Positions 19,901-48,762 of a DNA stretch of 64,000 nt are shown piece after piece. Location: the NCBI RefSeq assembly GCF_001424485.1, contig NZ_LMQC01000021.1, positions 1,249 to 65,248 of the forward strand. The letters are read 5' to 3'. Within the stretch, counting starts at the first letter, position 1. The number at the start of each line of letters is the position of its first letter. Below the pieces are notes generated by a model, which saw only the letters and a program-made list of their open reading frames with translations, was not told where the DNA came from and did no database searches. A program made the position numbers and the translations under genes. This DNA is from Modestobacter sp. Leaf380. GTDB taxonomy: Bacteria; Actinomycetota; Actinomycetes; Mycobacteriales; Geodermatophilaceae.

Positions 19901-20863
19901 ATGGCCGATGGCGTCCGTTGTTCGGTCGCCGATGCTGAAGTGGTGATCGAGCTGAGCGCGTTGTCCAAGAAGTACGGCGACAAGACCGTGGTGTCGAATC
20001 TGACGGCGGTCATTCGGCCGGGGCATGTGACCGGGTTCCTGGGGCCGAATGGGGCGGGGAAGTCCACGACGATGCGGATGGTGCTGGGTCTGGATCGGCC
20101 CACGTCCGGGCAGGCGACGGTCAACGGGCACTCCTATCGTGCGCTGCGTGCCCCGCTGCGGGAAGTCGGTGCGCTGCTGAACCCCCGGTCGGTGCACCCC
20201 AAGCGGACCGCCCGGGCTCACCTACGGGCGCTCGCCGCCGCCGGGGGTGTCCCAACCAGGCGGGTAGACGAGGTGCTGGAGCTGGCGGGCATCACCGGGG
20301 TGGCCGACAAGCCAGCTGGCGGCTTTTCCCTGGGGATGACCCAGAGGCTGGGAGTCGCAAGCGCGTTGCTCGGTGACCCGGGCGTAGTCATCCTTGACGA
20401 ACCGGTCAACGGCCTGGACCCCGACGGTGTGCTGTGGATCCGCACACTGACCCGTCGCTTGGCCGCGGAGGGCCGCACGGTGCTGGTGTCCTCACACCTG
20501 ATGAGTGAGATGTCCCTGACCGCTACGCACCTGCTGGTGATCGGCCGCGGCCGGCTGCTGGCCGACACCCCAATGGCGGACTTCATCGCCGCGTCCGGCG
20601 AGACCTACGTGCGACTGCGCAGCCCGCGCCTGCCGGAACTCATCCCGCTCATCGAGGGCCCGGACACCATCTGGTCCTCCCACCAGGTCGGCGAGGTTCA
20701 TGTCCGTGGACTGGGTGCTGCCGAGATCGGCGACCGGGCCGCCGCTGCCGGCGTACCGCTGCACGAGCTGACCGTGGTTGAGCCATCGCTGGAGGCGGCC
20801 TTCATGAAGTTGACCCGAAACGAGCGCGATTACCGCGCCGACGCGCAGGAGGACCCCCGATGA
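19901..20863 (+). CDS. ABC transporter ATP-binding protein
   Basis: 320 aa from ATG 19901. The homologous part begins VIELSALSKKYGDKTVV, so the GTG at 19943 is an equally likely start (306 aa). Walker A is GFLGPNGAGKST; the signature motif is degenerate (FSLGMTQRLGVASALL); Walker B is VVILDEPVNGLDPDG; the H-loop lies in VLVSSHLMSE. This is the BcrA/NatA-like branch with a C-terminal ~80-aa extension. It overlaps the permease gene by 4 bp (ATGA). With the downstream two-component system it resembles drug- or peptide-resistance modules. Confidence 0.9.
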   Translation: MADGVRCSVADAEVVIELSALSKKYGDKTVVSNLTAVIRPGHVTGFLGPNGAGKSTTMRMVLGLDRPTSGQATVNGHSYRALRAPLREVGALLNPRSVHPKRTARAHLRALAAAGGVPTRRVDEVLELAGITGVADKPAGGFSLGMTQRLGVASALLGDPGVVILDEPVNGLDPDGVLWIRTLTRRLAAEGRTVLVSSHLMSEMSLTATHLLVIGRGRLLADTPMADFIAASGETYVRLRSPRLPELIPLIEGPDTIWSSHQVGEVHVRGLGAAEIGDRAAAAGVPLHELTVVEPSLEAAFMKLTRNERDYRADAQEDPR

Positions 20864-38342: not shown

Positions 38343-39146
38343 GTGCTCAGCATCGGGGAGTTCGCCGGCCTCACCCACCTCAGCGTCCGGACTCTGCGCC
38401 GCTACCACGACAGCGGTCTGCTGCAGCCGGCCCAGGTGGACCCGCTGACCGGCTACCGCTCCTACACCGCCGAGCAGATCCCGACCGCGCAGGTCATCCA
38501 CCACCTGCGGGCCCTGGACCTCCCGCTGGACGACGTCCGGGCGGTGCTCGGAGCCGGGGACCCCGGCACCCGGGCCGAGCTGGTCGCCCGGCACCTGCAG
38601 CGGTTGGAGGACCAGCTGGCGCGCACCCGGGCCGCGGCCGCCTCGCTGCAGCGGCTCCTGGCACCGGGGCCGGTGGACGTCGAGCTGCGCGCGGTGCCGC
38701 CCACGGAGGTCGCCGCGGTCGCGGCCGTCGTCGCGCTGGACGACGTGCTGGGCTGGTACGCCGGCGCCGTGGCTGAGCTGGACGCCGTCGTGCCGCACCC
38801 CGACGGCCCGCCCGGTGGCGCCTACGACGACGAGCTGTTCACCGCCGGACGCGGCCGGGTGCAGGTGCACCTGCCGACGGGGGAGGCGCCCACGCGCGGC
38901 CGGGTGCGTCCGGTGCTCCTCCCGGGGGTGGAGCTGGCGGTCCGCACGCACGTCGGGGACCACGACACGATCGACGTCACCTACGGCGAGCTGGGGCGGT
39001 GGGTCGCCGACCACGCCCTCGCCGTCGCGGGGCCGGTCCGGGAGACGTACACGGTCGGGCCGCGGGACACCCCGGTGGCGGCCGACTGGCGCACCGAGAT
39101 CGGCTGGCCGGTCTTCCGACTGACCCCTCCGCCTACACGAGAATGA
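38343..39146 (+). CDS. MerR-family regulator with GyrI-like effector domain
   Basis: 267 aa; GTG 38343 probably on a nearly leaderless message. The winged HTH is LSIGEFAGLTHLSVRTLRRYHDSGLLQPAQVDPLTGYRSYT, followed by a dimerisation helix (ELVARHLQRLEDQLARTRAAAASLQRL). The C-terminal ~120 residues look like a BmrR/GyrI-type multidrug-binding domain (VELRAVPPTEVAAVAAVV; LPGVELAVRTHVGDHDTIDVTYGELGRWV). It likely senses hydrophobic compounds. Its stop codon lies inside a Zur/Fur-like palindrome that precedes the MFS exporter. Confidence 0.88.
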   Translation: MLSIGEFAGLTHLSVRTLRRYHDSGLLQPAQVDPLTGYRSYTAEQIPTAQVIHHLRALDLPLDDVRAVLGAGDPGTRAELVARHLQRLEDQLARTRAAAASLQRLLAPGPVDVELRAVPPTEVAAVAAVVALDDVLGWYAGAVAELDAVVPHPDGPPGGAYDDELFTAGRGRVQVHLPTGEAPTRGRVRPVLLPGVELAVRTHVGDHDTIDVTYGELGRWVADHALAVAGPVRETYTVGPRDTPVAADWRTEIGWPVFRLTPPPTRE

Positions 39147-39163
39147 ACATCATTCCCGTGTAG
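39133..39163 (+). promoter_or_regulatory. Zur/Fur-like box 1 (31-nt palindrome) before the MFS exporter
   Basis: A 31-nt imperfect palindrome with 13 of 15 pairs matched, centred at 39148: arms CTACACG and CGTGTAG around the core GAATGA-ACA-TCATTC. The core matches the TGAnAAtnATTnTCA-style Zur/Fur pattern. It covers the MerR stop and ends 12 bp before the exporter GTG, so binding would block exporter transcription. It shares its core with boxes at 43217 and 45064. Confidence 0.6.
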
Positions 39164-39174
39164 GGTCACCCGCC

Positions 39175-40416
39175 GTGGCGACCGTCTGGCAGGCCCCCGG
39201 CTTCCGCTCCTTCCTCGGGGCCCGGGTGGTCGCCGGCGCCGGCTACGCGATCACCGGGGTGGCCCTGCCGCTGCTGGTCCTGCAGCTGTCCGGCTCGGCC
39301 TTCCTGACCGCCGCCGTCTCCGCGCTGGAGGTCGCGCCGTACCTGCTGTTCGGGCTCGTGGCCGGCGCACTGGCCGACCGGGTCGACCGCCGCCGTCTCA
39401 TGCTGACCTGCCAGGCCGTCGCCGGGCTGGCACTGGCCACCGTGCCGCTGGCCGCCGCGGCCGACGCGCTCACGGTGCCGCACGTCCTGGTCGTCGCGCT
39501 CGTCCTGCACTCCGCCTTCGTCTGGTACGACGCCGCCTGCTTCGGCACCCTCCCCGCCCTGGTCGGCCGCGACCGGCTCGCCCCGGCCAACAGCGTCGTG
39601 TTCACCACCGCCAGCGTCGTCGAGGTGTCCTTCCCCGCCGTCGCCGGACTGCTCATCGCCACCGTCGGCCCCGCCTACGCACTGGGTGCCGACGTGGTCG
39701 CCTACGCCGTCGCCGCAGCCCTGATCGCCTCCATCGCGGTACCGCTGTCACCCGCCCGGGACGACGCCCCGCCGGCCCCCGCGGGTGTCGTGGCCCGCAC
39801 CGCCGGCGAGATCCGGGAGGGCCTGCGGTTCCTGTGGCACCAGCCGGTGGTGCGCGCACTGACCCTCTTCGGCTTCGGCCAGTCGGTGACCGCCGGGGCG
39901 GTGGGCGGGCTGCTCGTCGTCTTCGCGGTCGACGGGCTGGGCCTGGACCCCGGCTCGGGGTGGGTCGGTGCGGTGTTCGTCGCCACCGCCGTCGGCGGGC
40001 TGCTGGCCGGGGCCGGGCTCCCGTGGCTGTCCCGCCGGCTGCCGGTCGGCTGGATCAGCATCGGCGCCTACGCCGCCAACGCGGTGCTGGTCGTCGCCCT
40101 GGCCCTGGTGCCCGGCACCGCCGCCGCCCTCGTCCTGCTGGTGGCCTGGTCGGCGTCCTCGGTGCTGGCCGTGGTCAACGGGATCACCGCCCGCCAGCAG
40201 GTGACCCCCGACGGGCTGCAGAGCCGGGTCAACACCACCGCCCGGATGATCGCCTGGGGCGGGGCCCCCGTCGGCGCGCTGGCCGGCGGCGTGCTCGCCA
40301 CCGTCACCGACGTCCGGACGGCGTACCTGCTCGCCGCCCTCGGGGTGGCCACCAGCGCCGTCCTGGCGGCCCGCTCCCCGCTGCGGCGCCGCGAGCTGGT
40401 CACCGCCGCGGTCTGA
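39175..40416 (+). CDS. MFS exporter, EntS-like (MFS_3)
   Basis: 413 aa, GTG 39175. About 12 hydrophobic segments. WQAPGFRSFLGARVVAGAGYAITGVALPLLVLQLSGSAF and the A-motif-like loop LADRVDRRRLM identify the MFS_3 group, which contains the enterobactin exporter EntS. The position between a metal-box-like operator and a siderophore-type importer suggests export of the product of the RiPP cluster to the right. It is convergent with the importer ATPase; the stops are 3 bp apart. Confidence 0.85.
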   Translation: MATVWQAPGFRSFLGARVVAGAGYAITGVALPLLVLQLSGSAFLTAAVSALEVAPYLLFGLVAGALADRVDRRRLMLTCQAVAGLALATVPLAAAADALTVPHVLVVALVLHSAFVWYDAACFGTLPALVGRDRLAPANSVVFTTASVVEVSFPAVAGLLIATVGPAYALGADVVAYAVAAALIASIAVPLSPARDDAPPAPAGVVARTAGEIREGLRFLWHQPVVRALTLFGFGQSVTAGAVGGLLVVFAVDGLGLDPGSGWVGAVFVATAVGGLLAGAGLPWLSRRLPVGWISIGAYAANAVLVVALALVPGTAAALVLLVAWSASSVLAVVNGITARQQVTPDGLQSRVNTTARMIAWGGAPVGALAGGVLATVTDVRTAYLLAALGVATSAVLAARSPLRRRELVTAAV

Positions 40417-40418
40417 GG

Positions 40419-41237
40419 TCAGGCGTCGTCCCGCCGGTCCCCGGTGGGCACGAACATCGGCCGGCCGGTGACCGGGTCGGGCACCACCACCGCCTCGACG
40501 TGGAAGACCTCGCGCAGCAGGCCGGGGGTGAGCACCTGCTCCGGGGTCCCGTCGGCGACGACGGCGCCGCGGTGCAGGGCGACCACCCGGTCGGCGAAGC
40601 GGGCGGCCTGGTTGAGGTCGTGCAGCACGACGACGACCGTGGTGCCCCGCTCGTCGCAGCGCCGCCGCACCAGCCGCAGCAGTTCCAGCTGGTGGGCGAC
40701 GTCGAGGAAGGTGGTCGGCTCGTCCAGCAGCAGCGTCGGGGTGTCCTGGGCCAGGGCGAGGGCGATCCAGGCCCGCTGGCGCTCCCCGCCGGACAGCTCG
40801 TCCAGCCGGCGGTCGGCGAGGTGGTCGACACCCGCGGCGGTCATCGCGTCGGCCATCGCCTCGTCGTCGTGACGGCGCAACGCGCCGAACGCACCGACCC
40901 AGGGGTGCCGGCCCTGCTCGACCAGCTCGCGCACGCGCAGCCCGCCGGGCCCCTGCGGGTCCTGGGTGAGCAGCGCGACCCGGCGGGCGACCTGCGGCCC
41001 GGGCCAGTCGGCGATGTCCCGCCCGTCCAGGACGACTCGGCCGCCCCGGGTGGGCACCACCCGGCCCAGGGTCTGCAGCAGCGTGGACTTCCCGGACCCG
41101 TTGGGCCCGACCAGGCAGGTGAGCCGGCCGGGCTCGGGGACCAGGTCCACGCCGTCGAGCACCCGGCGCCGGCCGTAGCCGGCGACCACCCCGTGCGCGG
41201 TGGGGACGGCGGCCGGGGGAGGCGGCGGTGCGGTCAT
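40419..41237 (-). CDS. Siderophore-type ABC importer ATPase (FecE/FepC-like)
   Basis: 272 aa. Walker A VGPNGSGKST, Q-loop LLTQDPQ, signature LSGGERQRAWIALALAQ, Walker B LLLDEPTTFLD and H-loop VLHDLNQA are intact. The RHPWVGAFGALRRHD segment is typical of iron-siderophore/B12 ATPases. It is last of a three-gene minus-strand operon with two permeases (ATGA overlap), working with the lipoprotein encoded divergently at 43279. Confidence 0.93.
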   Translation of the reverse strand: MTAPPPPPAAVPTAHGVVAGYGRRRVLDGVDLVPEPGRLTCLVGPNGSGKSTLLQTLGRVVPTRGGRVVLDGRDIADWPGPQVARRVALLTQDPQGPGGLRVRELVEQGRHPWVGAFGALRRHDDEAMADAMTAAGVDHLADRRLDELSGGERQRAWIALALAQDTPTLLLDEPTTFLDVAHQLELLRLVRRRCDERGTTVVVVLHDLNQAARFADRVVALHRGAVVADGTPEQVLTPGLLREVFHVEAVVVPDPVTGRPMFVPTGDRRDDA

Positions 41238-42259
41238 CGGCGGGACCTCCGGAGCAGGGCGAGCAGGACGGGTCCGCCGACCACCGCGGTGACCGCGCCG
41301 ACCGGCAGGCCGGTCACCTGGCTGGCGGCACCGGGCAGCGAGACGGTGGTGCTGTAGGCGACCAGGTCGGCGGCGGAGAGCAGGACGGCACCCAGGACGG
41401 CGGCGACCGGCAGAAGCGCGCGGGCATCGGCGCCGACCAGGCGGCGGGCGACGTGCGGGGCGAGCAGCCCGACGAAGGCGACCGCCCCGGTCGCGGACAC
41501 CGCGGCGGCCGCCAGGGCGACGGCCAGCCCGAGCACGAGCAGTCGGGTGCGGTCGGCGGGCCGGCCCAGCGAGGTCACCAGCGGGTCGTCCAGCTGGAGC
41601 AGGTTGACCAGCCCGGCGGACAGCAGCCCCACCGGCACGCCGGCCAGCAGCCACGGCCAGAGTGCTGCCCAGTCGTCCCAGGTGCGGGCGTTGAGGGAAC
41701 CGACGAGCCAGCGCAGCACGCTGCCCAGGGAGTCCCGGCGCCCCAGCAGCAGCAGGCTGGTCAGCGCCGTGCACAGCGCGGCGACGAGTGCGCCGACCAG
41801 GACCAGCCGCCCGGGGGCCGAGCGGTGTCGCCCGGCGACCAGCCACGTCGCCGCGCCGGCGGCGAGACCGCCCAGCAGTGCGGCGACGGTGGGGGCGGGG
41901 GACAGGCCGGTGCCCGCGGCCACGGCGAGGGAGGCCACCACGCCCAGTGCGGCCCCGGTGGTCACCCCGACGAGCCCGGGCTCGGCGAGCGGGTTGCGGG
42001 TGACCGCCTGCAGCACCGCCCCGGACAGCGCCAACAGGGCCCCGGCGCCCAGCCCGACCAGCGCCCGCGGGAGCCGGAGGTCGACGACGAGCACCCGGTG
42101 GAACGCCGAGGTGGGGGAGCCGGTGAGCGCTGCCCACACGTCGTCCGGGGGCAGCGGCAGCCGTCCGACGGCCAGGTGGGCGGTGAGCAGTGCGGCCGCG
42201 GCGGCCACCCCGCCGACGACGAGCACGACCACCCGCCCGGGGCGGGCCACCCCGGTCAC
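41234..42259 (-). CDS. FecCD-family permease 1
   Basis: 341 aa with about nine to ten hydrophobic segments. RLPRALVGLGAGALLALSGAVLQAVTRNPLAEPGLVGVTTGAALG is the diagnostic FecCD segment, and GAVAFVGLLAPHVARRLVGADARALLPVAAVLGA the coupling loop. GTG 42259 overlaps the stop of permease 2 (GTGA). Forms the heterodimeric channel with the second permease for import of a metal chelate or similar ligand. Confidence 0.92.
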   Translation of the reverse strand: MTGVARPGRVVVLVVGGVAAAAALLTAHLAVGRLPLPPDDVWAALTGSPTSAFHRVLVVDLRLPRALVGLGAGALLALSGAVLQAVTRNPLAEPGLVGVTTGAALGVVASLAVAAGTGLSPAPTVAALLGGLAAGAATWLVAGRHRSAPGRLVLVGALVAALCTALTSLLLLGRRDSLGSVLRWLVGSLNARTWDDWAALWPWLLAGVPVGLLSAGLVNLLQLDDPLVTSLGRPADRTRLLVLGLAVALAAAAVSATGAVAFVGLLAPHVARRLVGADARALLPVAAVLGAVLLSAADLVAYSTTVSLPGAASQVTGLPVGAVTAVVGGPVLLALLRRSRR

Positions 42260-43233
42260 CACCCCTGCCTCCGCAGCGCCACCAGCAGCAGGGGGACGCC
42301 GAGCACGGTGGTGGCGATGCCGACCGGGAGCTCCACCGGGGCCAGCACGGTGCGGGCGAGCAGGTCGGCACCGACCAGCAGCACGGCACCGGCCAGGCCG
42401 GCGGCGGGCAGCACGCGGGCGCTGACCGAGGTGCCGCCCAGCCCGCGGACCAGGTGCGGGGACAGCAGCGCCACGAACGCCACCGGCCCGCAGACCGCCA
42501 CCACCGCCGCGGTCAGCGCGAGGGCCACGGTCACGACGGCGAGCCGCAACCGGGCCGGGCGGACGCCCAGGGCGGCGGCCGCGGGGTCGCCCAGGGCGAG
42601 CACGCCCAGCGGTCGGCGCAGCAGCCAGGCGCCGAGTGCGGCGGGCAGCAGCAGCGGTGCGAGCACGAGGACGTCGTCCCAGCCGCGACCGGCGAGGCTG
42701 CCCAGCAGGTACCGCAGCAGCAGGTCGACGTCCCCGGCGGTGCCCAGGCTGACCACGGCGACGACCAGGCCGGACAGCACCGCGGACACCGCGGCGCCGA
42801 CGAGGACGACCCGGGTGGCGTCCCGGGAGGTGCTGGCGGCCAGCAGGACGACGAGTCCGGCGGCGGCTGCGCCGAGCAGGGCGAGCGGCGCGCGCAGCCC
42901 CAGCGGGACGGGCAGGGCCAGCACCGTGCTGGTGGCCGCGACGAGGGCGGCGCCGGAGGAGACGCCGAGCAGCTCGGGCCCGGCCAGCGGGTTGCGCAGC
43001 CCGTCCTGCAGCAGCGCGCCGGTCAGGCCGAGGGCGGCCCCGCAGAGGGCGCCGAGCAGGACGCGGGGGGCCCGGACCCGGGCGAGCGTCAGCTCCTGCA
43101 CCGGGTCCGCGACGCCGGTCGCCCAGGCCCGCAGCAGGCCCGGGCCCAGGGCCAGCAGGACCAGGGCGGCCAGCACGACCAGGCCGACGGCCACCAGCCA
43201 CCGCAGCCCCGGTCTCGCGAGAACGATTGTCAT
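42256..43233 (-). CDS. FecCD-family permease 2
   Basis: 325 aa. RAPRVLLGALCGAALGLTGALLQDGLRNPLAGPELLGVSSGAALV and GPVAFVALLSPHLVRGLGG show the family, distinct from but paralogous to permease 1. The ATG at 43233 lies inside the second Zur/Fur-like box, so transcription may start very close to it. First gene of the permease-permease-ATPase operon, divergent from the binding protein. Confidence 0.92.
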   Translation of the reverse strand: MTIVLARPGLRWLVAVGLVVLAALVLLALGPGLLRAWATGVADPVQELTLARVRAPRVLLGALCGAALGLTGALLQDGLRNPLAGPELLGVSSGAALVAATSTVLALPVPLGLRAPLALLGAAAAGLVVLLAASTSRDATRVVLVGAAVSAVLSGLVVAVVSLGTAGDVDLLLRYLLGSLAGRGWDDVLVLAPLLLPAALGAWLLRRPLGVLALGDPAAAALGVRPARLRLAVVTVALALTAAVVAVCGPVAFVALLSPHLVRGLGGTSVSARVLPAAGLAGAVLLVGADLLARTVLAPVELPVGIATTVLGVPLLLVALRRQGW

Positions 43234-43239
43234 TACCGC
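43217..43239. promoter_or_regulatory. Zur/Fur-like box 2 between importer operons
   Basis: GCGAGAACGATTGTCATTAC core, centred at about 43228; it shares GAGAACGATTGTCATT exactly with box 3. It overlaps the permease 2 start on the minus strand and lies about 40 bp before the binding-protein GTG on the plus strand, so one site could silence both divergent units. Confidence 0.6.
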
Positions 43240-43278
43240 TAACCTAGCGCCTCCGCACCCCCGCCCCGAGAGGCCCCC

Positions 43279-44274
43279 GTGAACCGCACAGCTGCCCGCC
43301 CGACGTCCCGCACACCCCGGACGGTGGTCGCCACCGCCCTGGCCGGCCTCCTGCTCGCCGGCTGTTCCACCGACGCCGCCGAGGACACCGCCACCGCCGA
43401 GGGGGGCGCGGTGCAGACCCACACCGACGCCTCCGGCACCGAGCTCGAGCTGCCCGGCGAGGTCACCCGGATCGCCTGCCTCACCGCGATCTGCGGCGAC
43501 GCGCTGGCCGAGCTGGACCTGCAGCCGGTCGCCTACCGGGACCGGCTCGTCGTCGACGACCGCTTCTGGGGCCCCGACACCGACATGGTCGAGATCACCG
43601 GCGCCTTCGGCGAGGAGGACCTGGAGGACGTCGCCTCCGCCGAGCCCGACCTCGTCGTCGGCCTGCTCGGGGCGCACGACGGGCTGCGGGCCGGCCTGGA
43701 GCCGATCGCGCCGCTGCTGCTGGTGGACCCGCAGAGCTGGCAGGACTCGGTCGAGGTGCTGGAGCTGATGGGTGAGCTGACCGGCCGCCAGGACCGGGCC
43801 AGCGCGGCCGCCGAGGCGTTCACCGCGACGCTGGAGGAGGCCCGCGAGGAGGCCGACCGGCGCGCCGACGCCGCCGGTGGGCCGGCCAGCAGCATGGCCG
43901 TCTACGGCTCGCCCGACGGTCTGTCCGTCGACAGCGACGCCACCCCGGTCGGTTCGGTGCTCGCCGAGCTGGGGGAGTACCCCTGGTCCGGTGACGTCGC
44001 CGGCGGCCACTCGCCCGCCGTCCCGGTGTCGGTGGAGGAGGTGCTGGCCGTCGACCCGGACGTCGTCTTCGCCCAGACCCTGTCCTTCGGCGCGGTCGAG
44101 GCGACCCCGCTGTCCCAGGAGCTGGCCGCGGACCCGGTGTGGGCCAGCCTGGGCGCGGTCCGCGACGGCCGGGTCACCGAGGTCGACGCGACCCTCTGGG
44201 GCACCGGTCGGGGCACCCGCACCCTGACGCTGGTGCTCGAGGAGGCCCTGGACCTGCTGTACCCGGTGGGCTGA
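43279..44274 (+). CDS. Siderophore-type ABC substrate-binding lipoprotein
   Basis: 331 aa; GTG 43279. Signal peptide with basic start and lipobox LLAG-C29, so it is anchored on the outer face of the membrane. Peripla_BP_2 (FepB/FhuD-like) fold: ASGTELELPGEVTRIACL at the start, EDLEDVASAEPDLVVGLL and VEEVLAVDPDVVFAQ. Two cysteines (C-x4-C in ACLTAICGD) near the first strand are unusual. Divergent from the permease operon through the metal-box region, and followed 4 bp later by the SagB-like oxidase, linking import to RiPP synthesis. Confidence 0.92.
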   Translation: MNRTAARPTSRTPRTVVATALAGLLLAGCSTDAAEDTATAEGGAVQTHTDASGTELELPGEVTRIACLTAICGDALAELDLQPVAYRDRLVVDDRFWGPDTDMVEITGAFGEEDLEDVASAEPDLVVGLLGAHDGLRAGLEPIAPLLLVDPQSWQDSVEVLELMGELTGRQDRASAAAEAFTATLEEAREEADRRADAAGGPASSMAVYGSPDGLSVDSDATPVGSVLAELGEYPWSGDVAGGHSPAVPVSVEEVLAVDPDVVFAQTLSFGAVEATPLSQELAADPVWASLGAVRDGRVTEVDATLWGTGRGTRTLTLVLEEALDLLYPVG

Positions 44275-44278
44275 CCCG

Positions 44279-45055
44279 GTGTCGGCCGCTCGGGCGGGGC
44301 AGGGTGGTGAGGACCTGGCGCTGGTGCGCCGGGTGCACGCCGAGCTCGGGTCCCGCCCGACCGGCCGGGGCCGGTCGGCGACGCTGCCGCCGGACCCCGT
44401 GGCGACGACGGTCGTGCTGCCGCCCGCGCGGCCGCTGCCGCCGGTGACCGTCGAGCAGGCGCTGCTCCGCCGGCGGTCGGCCTACACCTGGGGTCCTGGG
44501 CAGATGGCCCTGCCCGACCTGGCGGACCTGCTGCGCTGGTCCCTGGGGGTCCAGCGGGAGGTCCTGCTGCCCGACGGCCGGCGGCACCGCGCGGGCGTGG
44601 CGCCCTCGGCCGGCGGGCTGCCCTCGCTGGAGCCGTGGCTCGTCGTCCGCGGGCCGGGCGCGCTGTCCCCGGGCGTGCACCGGGCCGACGTGCGGCACAC
44701 GGACGGCGGGGGTGGCGGCACGCTGACGCGCACCCGCGCCGGTGACCCCACCGACGCGTTGACGGCGGTGCTGGACCAGCCGCCGTTCGCCACCCGGGCC
44801 ACCGTCGTGGTGGTGCTGGTGGCCCGGCTGGACCTGACGCTGCCCACGTACGGGCCGCGGCACTACCGCACGCTCCACCTGGACGCCGGCATCGCGCTGC
44901 AGAACCTGCAGCTGGTCGCGACCGCGCTGGACCTCCCGGGCTGTCCGGTCTCGGGGTTCTCCGACGAGGGTCTCGCCGCCCTGCTGGCACTGCCGGGGAC
45001 GGCGTTCCCCGCGGCCCTCTTCGTCTCCGGGAGCCGGGTGCAGACATCCCGATGA
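44279..45055 (+). CDS. SagB-type FMN-dependent azoline dehydrogenase
   Basis: 258 aa; GTG 44279 just after the binding protein stop. Nitroreductase fold with SagB marks: ALLRRRSAYTWGPGQMALPDLADLLRWSLG, the VAPSAGGLPSLEPWLVV loop and the C-terminal HLDAGIALQNLQLVATALDLPG. These enzymes oxidise azolines to azoles in linear azol(in)e-containing peptides. Together with a YcaO and a small precursor nearby it points to thiazole/oxazole-type RiPP maturation. The precursor has no Cys, so oxazoles or methyloxazoles would be expected. Confidence 0.85.
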   Translation: MSAARAGQGGEDLALVRRVHAELGSRPTGRGRSATLPPDPVATTVVLPPARPLPPVTVEQALLRRRSAYTWGPGQMALPDLADLLRWSLGVQREVLLPDGRRHRAGVAPSAGGLPSLEPWLVVRGPGALSPGVHRADVRHTDGGGGGTLTRTRAGDPTDALTAVLDQPPFATRATVVVVLVARLDLTLPTYGPRHYRTLHLDAGIALQNLQLVATALDLPGCPVSGFSDEGLAALLALPGTAFPAALFVSGSRVQTSR

Positions 45056-45063
45056 CACGACGT

Positions 45064-45083
45064 TGAGAACGATTGTCATTCCT
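45064..45083 (+). promoter_or_regulatory. Zur/Fur-like box 3 before the RiPP precursor
   Basis: TGAGAACGATTGTCA at 45064-45078 fits the TGAnAAtnATTnTCA pattern at all fixed positions except one t-to-c. It lies about 60 bp before the precursor GTG and shares its 16-nt core with box 2. Confidence 0.6.
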
Positions 45084-45140
45084 GCTTGGCTGTCGGACGT
45101 GTCCCACCCGGGGCACGGCAACCGAGCCGAGGAGTCCACC

Positions 45141-45278
45141 GTGAACGAGTTCTTCCGCACCGAGAAGGTCCGCACCGCCCCGGCCGCCACCCACTCGGCG
45201 ACCCACAGCAACGCCCTCGTGGAGAACCCCTTCGAGGAGATCGCCGTCCAGCCCGAGCCGGCCGCCACCGAGCGCTGA
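45141..45278 (+). CDS. Putative azole-RiPP precursor peptide (45 aa)
   Basis: GTG 45141 with GAGGAG and 7-nt spacing. The peptide has no cysteine; its outstanding feature is a tandem Ala-Thr-His-Ser (A16-T-H-S19, A20-T-H-S23). If YcaO and SagB-like enzymes act on Thr17, Ser19, Thr21 and Ser23, the result would alternate (methyl)oxazoles with histidine imidazoles, an array suited to metal binding. The C-terminal NPFEEIAVQPEPAATER could be a recognition follower and the N-terminal NEFFRTEKV a short leader. It is flanked by its own metal-box-like promoter and a strong hairpin. Identity is inferred from context. Confidence 0.7.
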   Translation: MNEFFRTEKVRTAPAATHSATHSNALVENPFEEIAVQPEPAATER

Positions 45279-45291
45279 CCAGCTCGTGACC

Positions 45292-45328
45292 GCGCCCGCC
45301 CGTCCGGCACCGCCGGGCGGGCGGGCGC
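45292..45328 (+). terminator. Intercistronic hairpin after the precursor (attenuator-like)
   Basis: An 11-bp perfect outer stem (GCGCCCGCCCG with its complement), a T-G wobble and a 5-bp inner stem give 17 pairs with a 3-nt loop. It lies 13 bp after the precursor stop and 22 bp before the next ATG. It probably lets the precursor be made in excess over the enzymes. Confidence 0.7.
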
Positions 45329-45350
45329 CCCTCCACCCCCGGGAGACCCG

Positions 45351-46076
45351 ATGACCCCCCGCCTGCGCGAGTCGCCCCTGCTCACCCCGGGCACCGCCCT
45401 GCTGCCCCGCGACACGGGCTGGCTGCTGCGGACCGCCGACGGCACCGAGCACACCGTGCTGCTGGACGAGGCGGACACCGGCGCCCTGCTCGACGCGCTC
45501 GTCACCGGCACCCTCCCGGCCCTCCCGGCCGCCCGCCGTGCCCTGCAGGCGCTGGTCCTCGCCGGGCACGCCGTCGCCCCGGACGCCGACCCGGCGCCCC
45601 GGGTCGCCGTCTCCGGTGCAGGCCCGCTGGCCGCCGCGGTGGTCGACGCGCTGCGCGCCACGGGCGCCGTCCCGGTCGCACCGGGGGAGGCCACCACCGT
45701 GGTGCACCTCCTCGACGCCGCCCCCGGCCCGACCGGTCCGCCGGCGGGCGAGCTGGCCTGCTGGGTCGAGGGCCACCGGCTGGTGCTCACCCCCGTCGCG
45801 GTCAGCGCGCCGGACACCGCCGCCCGCCACCGCGCCGCGCACCGCCCCGCTGCCCCGACCGAGGACGGCGTGGTCTCCGGCCGCCCGGTGCCCTCCCCGC
45901 GGGCCCGCGTCCTGGCGGCTGCCCTCATCGCGACCGAGGCCGTGCGCCGGGCCGAGATCGCGCCCGCCGGACCACGCCCGTTCGACCGGGACGACCACCT
46001 GGCGACCGTGCTGGACCTGCTGACCCTGCACGTCACCCGGCACCCGGTCCTGCCGGTGCCGCCCGTCCCCGCGTGA
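45351..46076 (+). CDS. RRE/ThiF-like cyclodehydratase partner protein
   Basis: 241 aa; ATG 45351. The first ~75 residues (LLPRDTGWLLRTADGTEHTVLLDEADTGALLDALVTG and ARRALQALVLAGHAV) look like a PqqD-type winged-helix RiPP recognition element. The following PRVAVSGAGPLAAAVVDALRATGA is a short Rossmann segment as in ocin-ThiF or E1-like C-proteins, which bind the leader and activate YcaO. It is shorter than most C-proteins and no zinc-binding cysteines are seen. Overlaps the S15 hydrolase gene by 4 bp (GTGA). Confidence 0.7.
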   Translation: MTPRLRESPLLTPGTALLPRDTGWLLRTADGTEHTVLLDEADTGALLDALVTGTLPALPAARRALQALVLAGHAVAPDADPAPRVAVSGAGPLAAAVVDALRATGAVPVAPGEATTVVHLLDAAPGPTGPPAGELACWVEGHRLVLTPVAVSAPDTAARHRAAHRPAAPTEDGVVSGRPVPSPRARVLAAALIATEAVRRAEIAPAGPRPFDRDDHLATVLDLLTLHVTRHPVLPVPPVPA

Positions 46077-47416
46077 GGGACGGCGCGCACCGGGTCGGTG
46101 ACCTGGGCACCCGGGTGACGCTGCCCGACAGCGCACCCCGCGCCGTGCTCGTCGTCCGGACGCCGTACGGGGCCGACGCCCACCGGGCCGAGGGAGCCGC
46201 CTGGGCGGCCCGGGGTGTCGCCTTCGTCGTGCAGGACGTCCGTGGCCGGCACACCTCGCCGGGGGACTTCGCGCCCTACGCCGGCGAGGGGCCCGACGGC
46301 CTCGCGCTGCTGGCCTGGGTGCGCAGCTGGACCGCCGCCCCCGTCGTGCTGCAGGGCTCCTCGTACGGGGCGCACTGCGCCCTGGCGACCCTCGACGCGG
46401 CGGCCGGGACGCCCGGCGCGCCCGCCCCGGACGCCGTGGCGCTCGCCGTGCCGGCGCCGGGGCTGGGGGAGACCGCGCGGACGCCGGACGGCGCCTTCCT
46501 GCTGCAGTCCCGGTTGGGCTGGTGGACCGAGCACGCGCACACCCCGACACCGTCGCCCGTGCCGGCCGCCCTGCCCGGGCTGTGGCAGCGGCTCCCGGTG
46601 ACCACCGCAGGCGATCACGCCCCCCGGCCGGTGCCCTCCTGGCGCCGGGTGACGGCTGCCCGGCGCACCGACGACGAGCGGGCCCGGCTGCTGGCCGCCC
46701 AGACCTGCCCGCTGCTCGTCGTCGGCGGCACCGCCGACTGGTTCGCCCGCGAGGCCGTACGCACCTGGGCGGACTGGGGCGGCCCGGCCCGGCTGGTGCT
46801 GGGCCCCTGGGACCACGGCCTCCGCGGTGCCTCCCGCGCCGCCGTCACCCTGGACTGGCTGGACGCCGTCGGGCACGGCCGGCCGGCCGAGGGGGCCCTG
46901 GTCGTCGACGGCCGGGGGGCGCAGCGCGAGCTGGGCAGCTGGCCGGCCGCCGTCCGCGGCACCGTCCTCGCCGGCGGGGTCGTGCACGCCGACGCCCGCC
47001 ACCCACGCCCGTCCCCGCCGCTGGGCAGCCGCACCCTGGCCCCCGGTCCCCGGGCCGACCAGCTGGTGCTCCCGGTCCCACCGGCCGCGGTCGACCCCGG
47101 CGGCGGCCTGACCGGCGACGTCACCGTGACCGTGCGCGCCGACGGCCCCGGCCACTGGTGCGCCTCGCTGGCCCTCCGCGGACCGGGCGGGGCGCTGCAG
47201 GAGCTCGCCCACGGTGGCTCCACCGGTCCGCGGGTCCGGCTGGGGCCCGTCGTCGTCCCACCCGCGGACGGCGGCGACCTGGTCCTCGTCGTCTCCCCGC
47301 ACGACTTCCCGCGCCACGCCCGCGACCTGCAGTCCGGTGCCGACCACCTCACCGGCACCGGGCCCGCCCCGGCCCGCCGCACCGTCCACGCCGTCGAGAT
47401 GGAGACCCCCGCATGA
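46073..47416 (+). CDS. CocE/NonD (S15-like) serine hydrolase
   Basis: 447 aa. Alpha/beta hydrolase with S15 marks: VVRTPYGADAH, VVQDVRGRHTSPGDFAPY, nucleophile elbow G95-S-S97-Y-G99, acid in VGGTADWFAREA and His in LGPWDHGLRG; the C-terminal beta domain (TVTVRADGPGHWCASLAL) is the usual jelly-roll. The family includes X-Pro dipeptidyl peptidases and ester hydrolases. Coupled on both sides to RiPP genes, it may trim the precursor or hydrolyse the mature product after uptake. No secretion signal is visible. Confidence 0.85.
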   Translation: MRDGAHRVGDLGTRVTLPDSAPRAVLVVRTPYGADAHRAEGAAWAARGVAFVVQDVRGRHTSPGDFAPYAGEGPDGLALLAWVRSWTAAPVVLQGSSYGAHCALATLDAAAGTPGAPAPDAVALAVPAPGLGETARTPDGAFLLQSRLGWWTEHAHTPTPSPVPAALPGLWQRLPVTTAGDHAPRPVPSWRRVTAARRTDDERARLLAAQTCPLLVVGGTADWFAREAVRTWADWGGPARLVLGPWDHGLRGASRAAVTLDWLDAVGHGRPAEGALVVDGRGAQRELGSWPAAVRGTVLAGGVVHADARHPRPSPPLGSRTLAPGPRADQLVLPVPPAAVDPGGGLTGDVTVTVRADGPGHWCASLALRGPGGALQELAHGGSTGPRVRLGPVVVPPADGGDLVLVVSPHDFPRHARDLQSGADHLTGTGPAPARRTVHAVEMETPA

Positions 47417-48762
47417 GCCTGCTGACCGTCGAGGACCTCGTCGACCCCTGGTGCGGCCTGGTCCAGGCCCTGCACCCGGTGGAGCGGCTGCCCGGGATGC
47501 CCGCCGCCTACGTCGGGCTCACCGCCCAGGTCGCCGACGCCCGGGTGCACGGCACCTGGCCCAACGACCTGGTGTCGCTGGGCACCACGTTCGGCGACCC
47601 CGCCGGTGCGCGGATCGCCGCCATCGGCGAGGCCGTCGAGAGGTACTGCGGCAACCACGTCCCCGACGGCCTCCGCCGGGCGAGCGCCGCCCGGCTGCGG
47701 GCCGAGGGGCACCGGCTGCTGGGGCCCGAGGACCTGCCGTTCTTCGCCGACTGGCAGCACGACCAGCCCGAGTTCCCCTTCACCCGGTTCACCGACGACG
47801 TCGAGACCAGCTGGGTGACCGGCACCGGCGAGGACGGCCCGGTCCTCGTCCCGGCGTCCTGGGTGCACCTGAACTGGCGCAGCGGACCGCGCCGCGCCGA
47901 GCCCTGGCTGCACCCGCTCAACTACGCCGGCATCGCCACCGGCCAGGGCGCCGCCGACGCCACCCGCCGCGGGCTCCTCGAGCTCGTCGAGCGCGACGCG
48001 CTGTCCTCCTGGTGGCACCTGCGCCGGCCCGCCGCCGGCATCGACGTGGACAGCGTCCCGGGGCTGCGCGACCACCTCGGGGACACCCGGCTGCAGGTGC
48101 ACCTGCTGGCCCTGCCCAGCGACCTCGGCGTCCCCGTCGTCGCCGCCGTCGTGCACGACCCCGTCACCGGCATCGCCGCCGGCGGGTTCTCCGCCAAGCT
48201 CGACCCCGCCGAGACCGCCACCAAGGCGGTGCTGGAGGCCGTGCACAGCTGGGTCTTCACCCTGGGCATGCTCGACGCCGACGGCTGGGTCTTCCAGGCG
48301 ATGGACGCCGGCGTCCTGTCGGCGGGGCTGTACTTCCCGCACCGACCCGACCGGGACTACCGGGACCTCACCGGCCCCCGGTGCGAGCGGGTCCGCGACC
48401 TGGGCGCCCAGGCCCAGGTCTGGCTGGACCCCCGCGTGCAGGCCGAGCTGCTGCCCCGGTTCACCGCCCCCGCCGAGCGGGTCCCGCTGAGCTCCCTGCC
48501 GGTCGGCACCGAGGCGGGGCTGCGGGCCGCGCTGGCCGCCGGGGGGCACGAGGTGGTCGTCTGCGACCTGACCACCCCCGACGTGGCACTCACCCCGCTG
48601 CGCGTCGTGCGGGTCTGCGCCCGCGGCCTGATCCCCAACGCCCCGGCCGCCTTCACCTACTTCGGACTGCCCCGCTGGCGTGAGCTGGCCGGCCGGCTCG
48701 GGCTGCCCGCGGACCCGAGCGACCCGGACAGCCTCCTGCTGCTGCCCCCGCCCAGCCTCTGA
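47413..48762 (+). CDS. YcaO cyclodehydratase
   Basis: 449 aa; ATG 47413 overlaps the hydrolase stop (ATGA). ATP/Mg-binding motifs: IGEAVERYCG (residues 71-80) and LLELVERDALSSWW (188-201), both standard for YcaO. The C-terminal end is proline-rich (LLLLPPPSL), in the place where azoline-forming YcaO proteins carry PxPxP. YcaO enzymes use ATP to activate an amide backbone and cyclise Ser, Thr or Cys side chains. No TfuA or radical partner is present, so heterocyclisation rather than thioamidation is most likely. Confidence 0.92.
   Translation: MSLLTVEDLVDPWCGLVQALHPVERLPGMPAAYVGLTAQVADARVHGTWPNDLVSLGTTFGDPAGARIAAIGEAVERYCGNHVPDGLRRASAARLRAEGHRLLGPEDLPFFADWQHDQPEFPFTRFTDDVETSWVTGTGEDGPVLVPASWVHLNWRSGPRRAEPWLHPLNYAGIATGQGAADATRRGLLELVERDALSSWWHLRRPAAGIDVDSVPGLRDHLGDTRLQVHLLALPSDLGVPVVAAVVHDPVTGIAAGGFSAKLDPAETATKAVLEAVHSWVFTLGMLDADGWVFQAMDAGVLSAGLYFPHRPDRDYRDLTGPRCERVRDLGAQAQVWLDPRVQAELLPRFTAPAERVPLSSLPVGTEAGLRAALAAGGHEVVVCDLTTPDVALTPLRVVRVCARGLIPNAPAAFTYFGLPRWRELAGRLGLPADPSDPDSLLLLPPPSL

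Follow-up and report, generated by a model that had tools for sequence, protein, structure and literature searches.

Zur-type boxes before the precursor and importer genes of a streptamidine-family cluster in Modestobacter sp. Leaf380, with a possible role in zinc acquisition

The gene cluster at 39175-48762 of the window (a 64,000-nt stretch of Modestobacter sp. Leaf380, NZ_LMQC01000021.1, to which all coordinates refer) belongs to the streptamidine family of ribosomally synthesized and post-translationally modified peptides (RiPPs), and both its precursor gene (amiA) and its importer genes are preceded by boxes of the type bound by the zinc repressor Zur. Because such boxes stand at amiA and the importer, and the same motif stands at znuA-type, L31, L33 and zur-type genes of ami-bearing genomes, the streptamidine family is, as read from sequence, probably repressed by Zur and produced when zinc is short, a family-wide link that is apparently unreported. 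The purpose of streptamidine has so far been a mystery, and a Zur-type box before both precursor and importer gives a testable lead, namely that the peptide probably helps cells to cope with scarce zinc or to fetch it. On balance, we lean towards reading the locus as a Zur-regulon cluster whose exported peptide is re-imported, most likely in complex with zinc. Were the peptide to carry zinc, it would be the first ribosomal zincophore known to us; even without chelation, a RiPP within a zinc-starvation regulon would be unexpected and could explain a function that has been overlooked.

Sites were scored with a core pattern, TGANAANNNTTNTCA (10 scored positions), derived from the 21-bp actinobacterial motif given in PMC5472717. 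The elements concerned in the window (none assigned to a strand) are:

43218..43232, no strand: Zur-type box (CGAGAACGATTGTCA) between the divergent importer genes and the genes of the substrate-binding protein (SBP) and the SagB-type protein, 9/10 positions
45064..45078, no strand: Zur-type box (TGAGAACGATTGTCA), 62 bp upstream of the precursor start, 10/10 positions of TGANAANNNTTNTCA
39132..39164, no strand: 33-bp palindrome (15-nt arms, 3-nt spacer) in the promoter of a major facilitator superfamily (MFS) gene, with two overlapping 7/10 Zur-like sites at 39138 and 39144

The scores of the importer and amiA boxes were each reached by 0/2000 shuffles of their own region. Across the host genome (4.76 Mb scanned), only four places come within one mismatch of TGANAANNNTTNTCA, and none does so for the reversed pattern: the two ami boxes, a perfect box in the promoter of an ArsR-type gene by the zur homologue, and a site inside an integrase-like open reading frame, which is taken for chance. 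A Zur box has also been described at the smtB-zur operon of M. smegmatis (PMC7174638). With a looser 17-mer (up to three mismatches), all three elements of the locus are among 8 matches (6 distinct sites) in the genome, the reversed control giving 0. The best matches of the genome's own regulator are 3mwm (E 3e-49; entry title 'putative metal uptake regulation protein'), which we take to be the Zur of S. coelicolor, and M. tuberculosis FurB, 2o03 (1e-46), iron Fur reaching only ~1e-16; judging from these matches, the host regulator is Zur-type.

The same arrangement was followed through 100 loci (the window plus 19 and 80 relatives), which gave 83 distinct regions upstream of a precursor for scoring; not counted are 13 loci in which the search pattern found no precursor, 4 duplicates and a false minus-strand row of L053. 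In 81/83 regions the 150 bp before amiA hold a Zur-type site of at least 8/10, and in 59/83 one of at least 9/10. At the lower threshold the controls gave 3.2-3.6% (shuffles, the Markov shuffles of these regions being at 3.2%), 2.3% (windows drawn at random from these loci) and 4/83 (reversed pattern), and at the higher one Markov shuffles gave 0.4%. The gap between box and amiA start has a median of 66 bp (60-84 bp in the middle 80%). As the loci share descent, the regions cannot be counted as independent of one another; once the set is reduced for shared 8-mers, the amiA box is present in 45/46. Boxes of at least 8/10 also precede the SBP gene in 48/100 loci (duplicates included; 28 are perfect), among them 37 of the 45 named Streptomyces loci. 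In S. albidoflavus NRRL B-1271 (L084), another strain of the streptamidine producer's species, 9/10 boxes stand before both amiF1 and amiA. A preliminary description of the window had proposed metal control of the cluster and suggested mining genomes for the gene set together with its boxes, and the outcome of that mining supports, at the level of sequence, zinc (Zur) regulation of precursor and importer.

Further candidate Zur sites were collected in other ami-bearing genomes. Since the exact motif gave one site only in G388, one mismatch was then allowed, which returned 8, 14 and 15 sites in G257, G388 and G501 (reversed control 2, 3 and 10); as the reversed control also yields matches, single sites are not proof. 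Neighbours were read for 18 of the 37 sites (4 more being known as ami sites), from fetched stretches in which the site was assumed to be at the centre, up to ~60 bp off. Nine neighbours, picked for hidden Markov model (HMM) checks because they appeared zinc-related, were confirmed as four ZnuA-type proteins, an ABC-3 permease, a cation-efflux protein, the ribosomal proteins L31 and L33 and a FUR protein, while about half of the 18 sites have no obvious zinc link (e.g. L149, L150, L154, L155, L157, L163, L166 and L167). The classic targets of Zur include the genes of zinc importers and of alternative ribosomal proteins as well as zur itself (PMC6103462), and zitB is a further one (PMC5472717). 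The term Zur is absent from the main text of the streptamidine paper (PMC8442711; term search). Among the papers searched, streptamidine and zinc are mentioned together only by that 2021 paper and by one that seems unrelated, and no literature linking streptamidine, or YcaO proteins and RiPPs, to Zur or to a zincophore is among the matches listed (the best 20 where there were more) by a search of subscription-free literature that took in the main text of the 2021 paper.

Family membership is firm, because the precursor passes the NF040714 cut-off, the YcaO is 76% identical to that of relatives surrounded by a matching ami gene set, and the predicted AmiB fold agrees. The genes and the hairpin between two of them are, in order:

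39175..40416, plus strand: MFS exporter, replacing amiT1/T2 (PF07690 and PF05977 over cut-off)
40419..41237, minus strand: AmiF-type ABC ATPase, FecE-like (curated profile models)
41234..42259, minus strand: AmiF-type FecCD permease (PF01032; the two permeases score 259 and 235 bits)
42256..43233, minus strand: AmiF-type FecCD permease (PF01032, as above)
43279..44274, plus strand: AmiF-type siderophore-class SBP (PF01497, 75 bits)
44279..45055, plus strand: AmiE-type SagB-family dehydrogenase (TIGR03605, 81.5 against a cut-off of 78.4)
45141..45278, plus strand: AmiA precursor, 45 aa, GTG start (NF040714, 41.1 against a cut-off of 40 bits)
45292..45328, plus strand: 17-bp hairpin between amiA and amiB (z = -3.5), which may be a partial terminator
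45351..46076, plus strand: AmiB, 241 aa (sub-threshold TIGR03882, 17.2 against 36.9 bits; Foldseek)
46073..47416, plus strand: AmiC hydrolase (S15/CocE-NonD), proposed leader peptidase (PF02129, 82.4 bits)
47413..48762, plus strand: AmiD, YcaO (PF02624, 168.6 bits; TIGR03604 198 bits, below the cut-off of 219)

Every cluster gene but that of AmiB passes a curated-family cut-off, the YcaO through Pfam and not through TIGR03604. The streptamidine set, as given in PMC8442711, comprises amiF1-F4 (FecBCDE), amiA, amiB (TruD-like), amiC (hydrolase), amiD (YcaO), amiE (dehydrogenase) and amiT1-T2; in the window, a stand-alone YcaO, AmiB and an AmiC hydrolase adjoining amiA are found together with a FecBCDE-type importer and a SagB-type AmiE. 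ABC exporters of the amiT1/T2 kind are absent among the cluster genes, to which the search was limited, and the MFS gene is present instead; as the composition of ami clusters varies and deletion of amiT1-T2 merely lowered production (PMC8442711), these exporters were not treated as defining. The 76% identity of the YcaO is to loci in G257 and G267, the ami set being alike around both, and in a related Rhodococcus plasmid locus amiA is annotated 'streptamidine family RiPP', with a CocE hydrolase and a YcaO alongside. Streptamidine clusters have been reported from >230 species.

Most genes had been correctly named in the preliminary description: the siderophore-type importer (PF01032 permeases, PF01497 binding protein and ATPase), the SagB-like oxidase, the 45-aa precursor, the S15 hydrolase and the YcaO all stand. 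Its EntS-like exporter is indeed an MFS protein, on which the EntS model NF007792 reaches 102.8 bits, far below the cut-off of 324. Its RRE/ThiF-like protein is AmiB, for which the HMM evidence stays below threshold; for the predicted structure (mean pLDDT 86.6, pTM 0.67) the best Foldseek matches are a chain of the McbBCD complex (microcin synthetase) and the heterocyclase TruD (E ~2e-7, probability 1.00), with TM-scores of only 0.36-0.41 and a large rmsd, so that the domains are placed differently. These matches fit AmiB as a probable E1-like/RRE partner of the YcaO. Against the S. albidoflavus protein, AmiB aligns at 31%, the best tblastn segment of AmiC in L084 is 38% identical, the SagB-type protein matches a Streptomyces AmiE candidate weakly in direct comparison, and the closest solved structures of the SBP are mostly siderophore-binding proteins.

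Compared with the streptamidine cluster itself (Streptomyces albidoflavus J1074, MIBiG BGC0002115), the window shares the precursor family, AmiB, AmiC, AmiD, the SagB-type AmiE and the FecBCDE-type importer, but it has an MFS exporter where streptamidine has two ABC exporters, an importer divergent from the SBP-SagB pair, and an inferred core of THSATH (His at 2 and 6) in place of HLSATH. Ami clusters of Nocardioides/Pimelobacter (L123, L133 and L138) have in common with the window an MFS homologue, SagB, the importer and amiA boxes and core His at 2 and 6, their core being THSAGH; in L043 (the same locus as L133) and L044 the MFS gene lies directly 3' of the YcaO gene, unlike in the window. 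An MFS homologue occurs somewhere in 18/100 streptamidine-family loci (window included, one locus counted twice), a count of presence in the locus and not of gene position. Given the gene set published for streptamidine (PMC8442711), the earlier remark that no azole RiPP with this whole logic was known is not supported, and an undescribed azole RiPP was rejected, since the precursor matches NF040714.

In the window, the THSATH core of AmiA is followed by SNALVENPF and displays motif A (Ser3-Ala4, His6, then SNALV). Among 86 core repeats selected by the SNxLV motif, S3, A4 and H6 are common to all, and each has exactly two His (at positions 1 and 6, or in 5 repeats at 2 and 6), one invariant Ser and no Cys. 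Streptamidine is dehydrated HLSATH with a six-membered N-terminal amidine and without azole (PMC8442711), so the term 'azole' in the preliminary description does not follow; the corresponding dehydrated THSATH would have a predicted [M+H]+ of 635.2896. The core, short and without Cys, is also unlike the Ser/Thr/Cys-rich core of a linear azole peptide, and such core regions are lacking in the streptamidine family as described in PMC8442711. According to the same paper, AmiE is essential, yet streptamidine shows no sign of oxidation; when amiE is mutated, masses that would fit oxazolines build up. The need for AmiE where no oxidation is visible makes a larger oxidised product conceivable. The Streptomyces hexapeptide may also be smaller than the active form.

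In the zinc-acquisition reading, Zur would occupy the boxes before the importer/SBP-SagB pair and amiA in zinc-replete cells and repress them; upon zinc shortage, Zur would be released and the precursor, enzymes, importer and probably exporter would be made. By analogy with the streptamidine pathway, AmiB would present AmiA, AmiD would dehydrate the core, AmiC would remove the leader, and an N-terminal amidine would form on THSATH. The two-histidine peptide would then be exported by the MFS protein and recaptured by the FecBCDE-type importer, most likely as a zinc complex. We infer zinc as the cargo from the kind of importer, from its regulation in common with amiA and from the pair of His in each of the 86 motif-A core repeats; the streptamidine authors had themselves proposed metal import, on account of the fecBCDE-like genes (PMC8442711).

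Several observations weigh against this reading. Purified streptamidine bound none of seven metals, zinc included, and the amiD mutant behaved like wild type under metal starvation (both PMC8442711); the literature consulted records no ami cluster that responds to zinc. It is possible that the hexapeptide tested was trimmed, that the complex is labile in liquid chromatography-mass spectrometry, or that ZnuABC masks the loss. Two of the 83 regions lack the amiA box: that of L060, a second copy of the cluster close to the end of a contig, and that of L130, from a non-actinobacterial metagenome-assembled genome (MAG). In G501, the reversed control comes to 10 against 15 sites, and the genome's own ami box (two mismatches) is not among the latter. 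Among a distant set of 16 further YcaO loci boxes are patchy: 13/16 have a site of at least 9/10 somewhere, and of the five with a motif-B-like precursor a box lies just upstream in L179 (9) and L171 (8) and not in L168 (7), L169 (6) and L177 (6). In L132 and L137 the core of the motif-B precursor lacks the two His, yet a Zur-type box is present, and the conserved His were accordingly rejected as proof of metal binding. Finally, the third of the three similar boxes of the preliminary description, at the exporter, is weak (7/10, a score reached by 101/2000 shuffles), while those at amiA and the importer fit the Zur pattern. The palindrome that holds it separates the MFS gene from a MerR/GyrI-type regulator gene and may be a MerR operator, instead of or besides a Zur site; a strict three-box Zur model was rejected, the exporter box being weak and part of another palindrome.

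More tentatively, and in our estimate somewhat short of probable, the whole streptamidine family, spread over actinobacteria, could be a ribosomal zincophore system of Zur-repressed two-His amidine peptides that are exported and recaptured via FecBCDE-type importers. Partial repression would then have yielded the hexapeptide of 2021 in a trimmed or metal-free state, and this would explain the negative binding tests.

A serious rival, unlikely on the whole, keeps Zur in control and gives the peptide another task: instead of chelating, it would signal zinc starvation, spare zinc or act on neighbours, and the importer would sense or recycle it. The negative metal-binding and starvation tests and the suggestion of signalling or development by the streptamidine authors (PMC8442711) agree with such a role, as do the His-free, box-bearing motif-B loci L132 and L137. 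Chelation is in turn favoured by the siderophore-class importer with a binding protein resembling siderophore binders, by the boxes common to importer and amiA, and by the two His kept in 86/86 motif-A repeats. Improbable in our view is an azole (oxazole) metallophore, whose azolines SagB would oxidise and of which the known amidine hexapeptide would be a fragment or shunt product; the SagB-type protein over cut-off at the locus and the AmiE results described above (PMC8442711) suit it, but the major isolated product is azole-free (PMC8442711) and the cores offer one invariant Ser and no Cys.

Control by a regulator other than Zur, either an iron-type Fur or, for the exporter, the adjacent MerR, appears less probable still. 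The box does resemble the Fur box of E. coli, matching it at 13 or 14 of 19 positions for 61/83 regions, a MerR gene with a GyrI-like domain adjoins the 33-bp palindrome at the exporter, and the window importer region holds an 11/19 IdeR-like match (reached by 12/300 shuffles). On the other side, the motif also precedes znuA-type, L31, L33 and FUR genes in ami-bearing genomes, and the host's own regulator is Zur-type. The IdeR/DmdR iron consensus (at least 11/19) occurs in 8/83 amiA regions, below the 18% of shuffles, and with no enrichment upstream of amiA iron control by IdeR/DmdR was rejected. An ordinary secondary-metabolite cluster without metal role, in which the boxes are irrelevant, fits the lack of bioactivity or metal phenotype of streptamidine (PMC8442711) and is given almost no credence, as the boxes are positionally conserved in 81/83 loci against ~3% by chance.

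Coelibactin of Streptomyces coelicolor, a putative zincophore, is likewise made under Zur (PMC5472717, PMC6103462), but it is a non-ribosomal peptide with chemistry unrelated to the ami product. Klebsazolicin and bottromycin have, like streptamidine, a YcaO-made amidine ring (PMC8442711), and unlike it they are antibiotics. Methanobactin, a ribosomal copper metallophore with oxazolone/thioamide ligands, resembles the ami system in being a ribosomal peptide with dedicated transport, and differs in its metal and in having no known YcaO. We know of no zinc control or importer for klebsazolicin or bottromycin.

As regards the history of the locus, the cluster is present in 1/112 genomes of the host's family, the sole hint, and this suggests horizontal gain; in an empty-site comparison within the genus, the flanking genes are 12 kb apart in the window and at least ~115 kb apart in five relatives with both on one contig. 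Among the relatives, genome G192 has three YcaO copies of the streptamidine family, and of the two examined (L060 and L054) one has an amiA box and one has none. The Thermoanaerobaculia MAG locus L130 combines an ami-like YcaO with a precursor containing ALVENPF and has no Zur-type box. In the precursors of L049, L050, L053, L056, L103 and L107, the core-ALV unit is tandemly repeated within one peptide. A Zur-like site, TGATAACCGTTTCCA, recurs near 20200, downstream of the ami cluster, in the Streptomyces loci L069, L071, L074, L079 and L131. In the Modestobacter genome itself (L006, contig C4, 1501-1517), a weaker Zur-like site, with three mismatches to the 17-mer, lies between genes for a TIGR03943 putative permease subunit and a Nik/Cnt-like ABC ATPase and adjoins a Cu/Zn-efflux-like gene below cut-off; it is a possible further zinc target.

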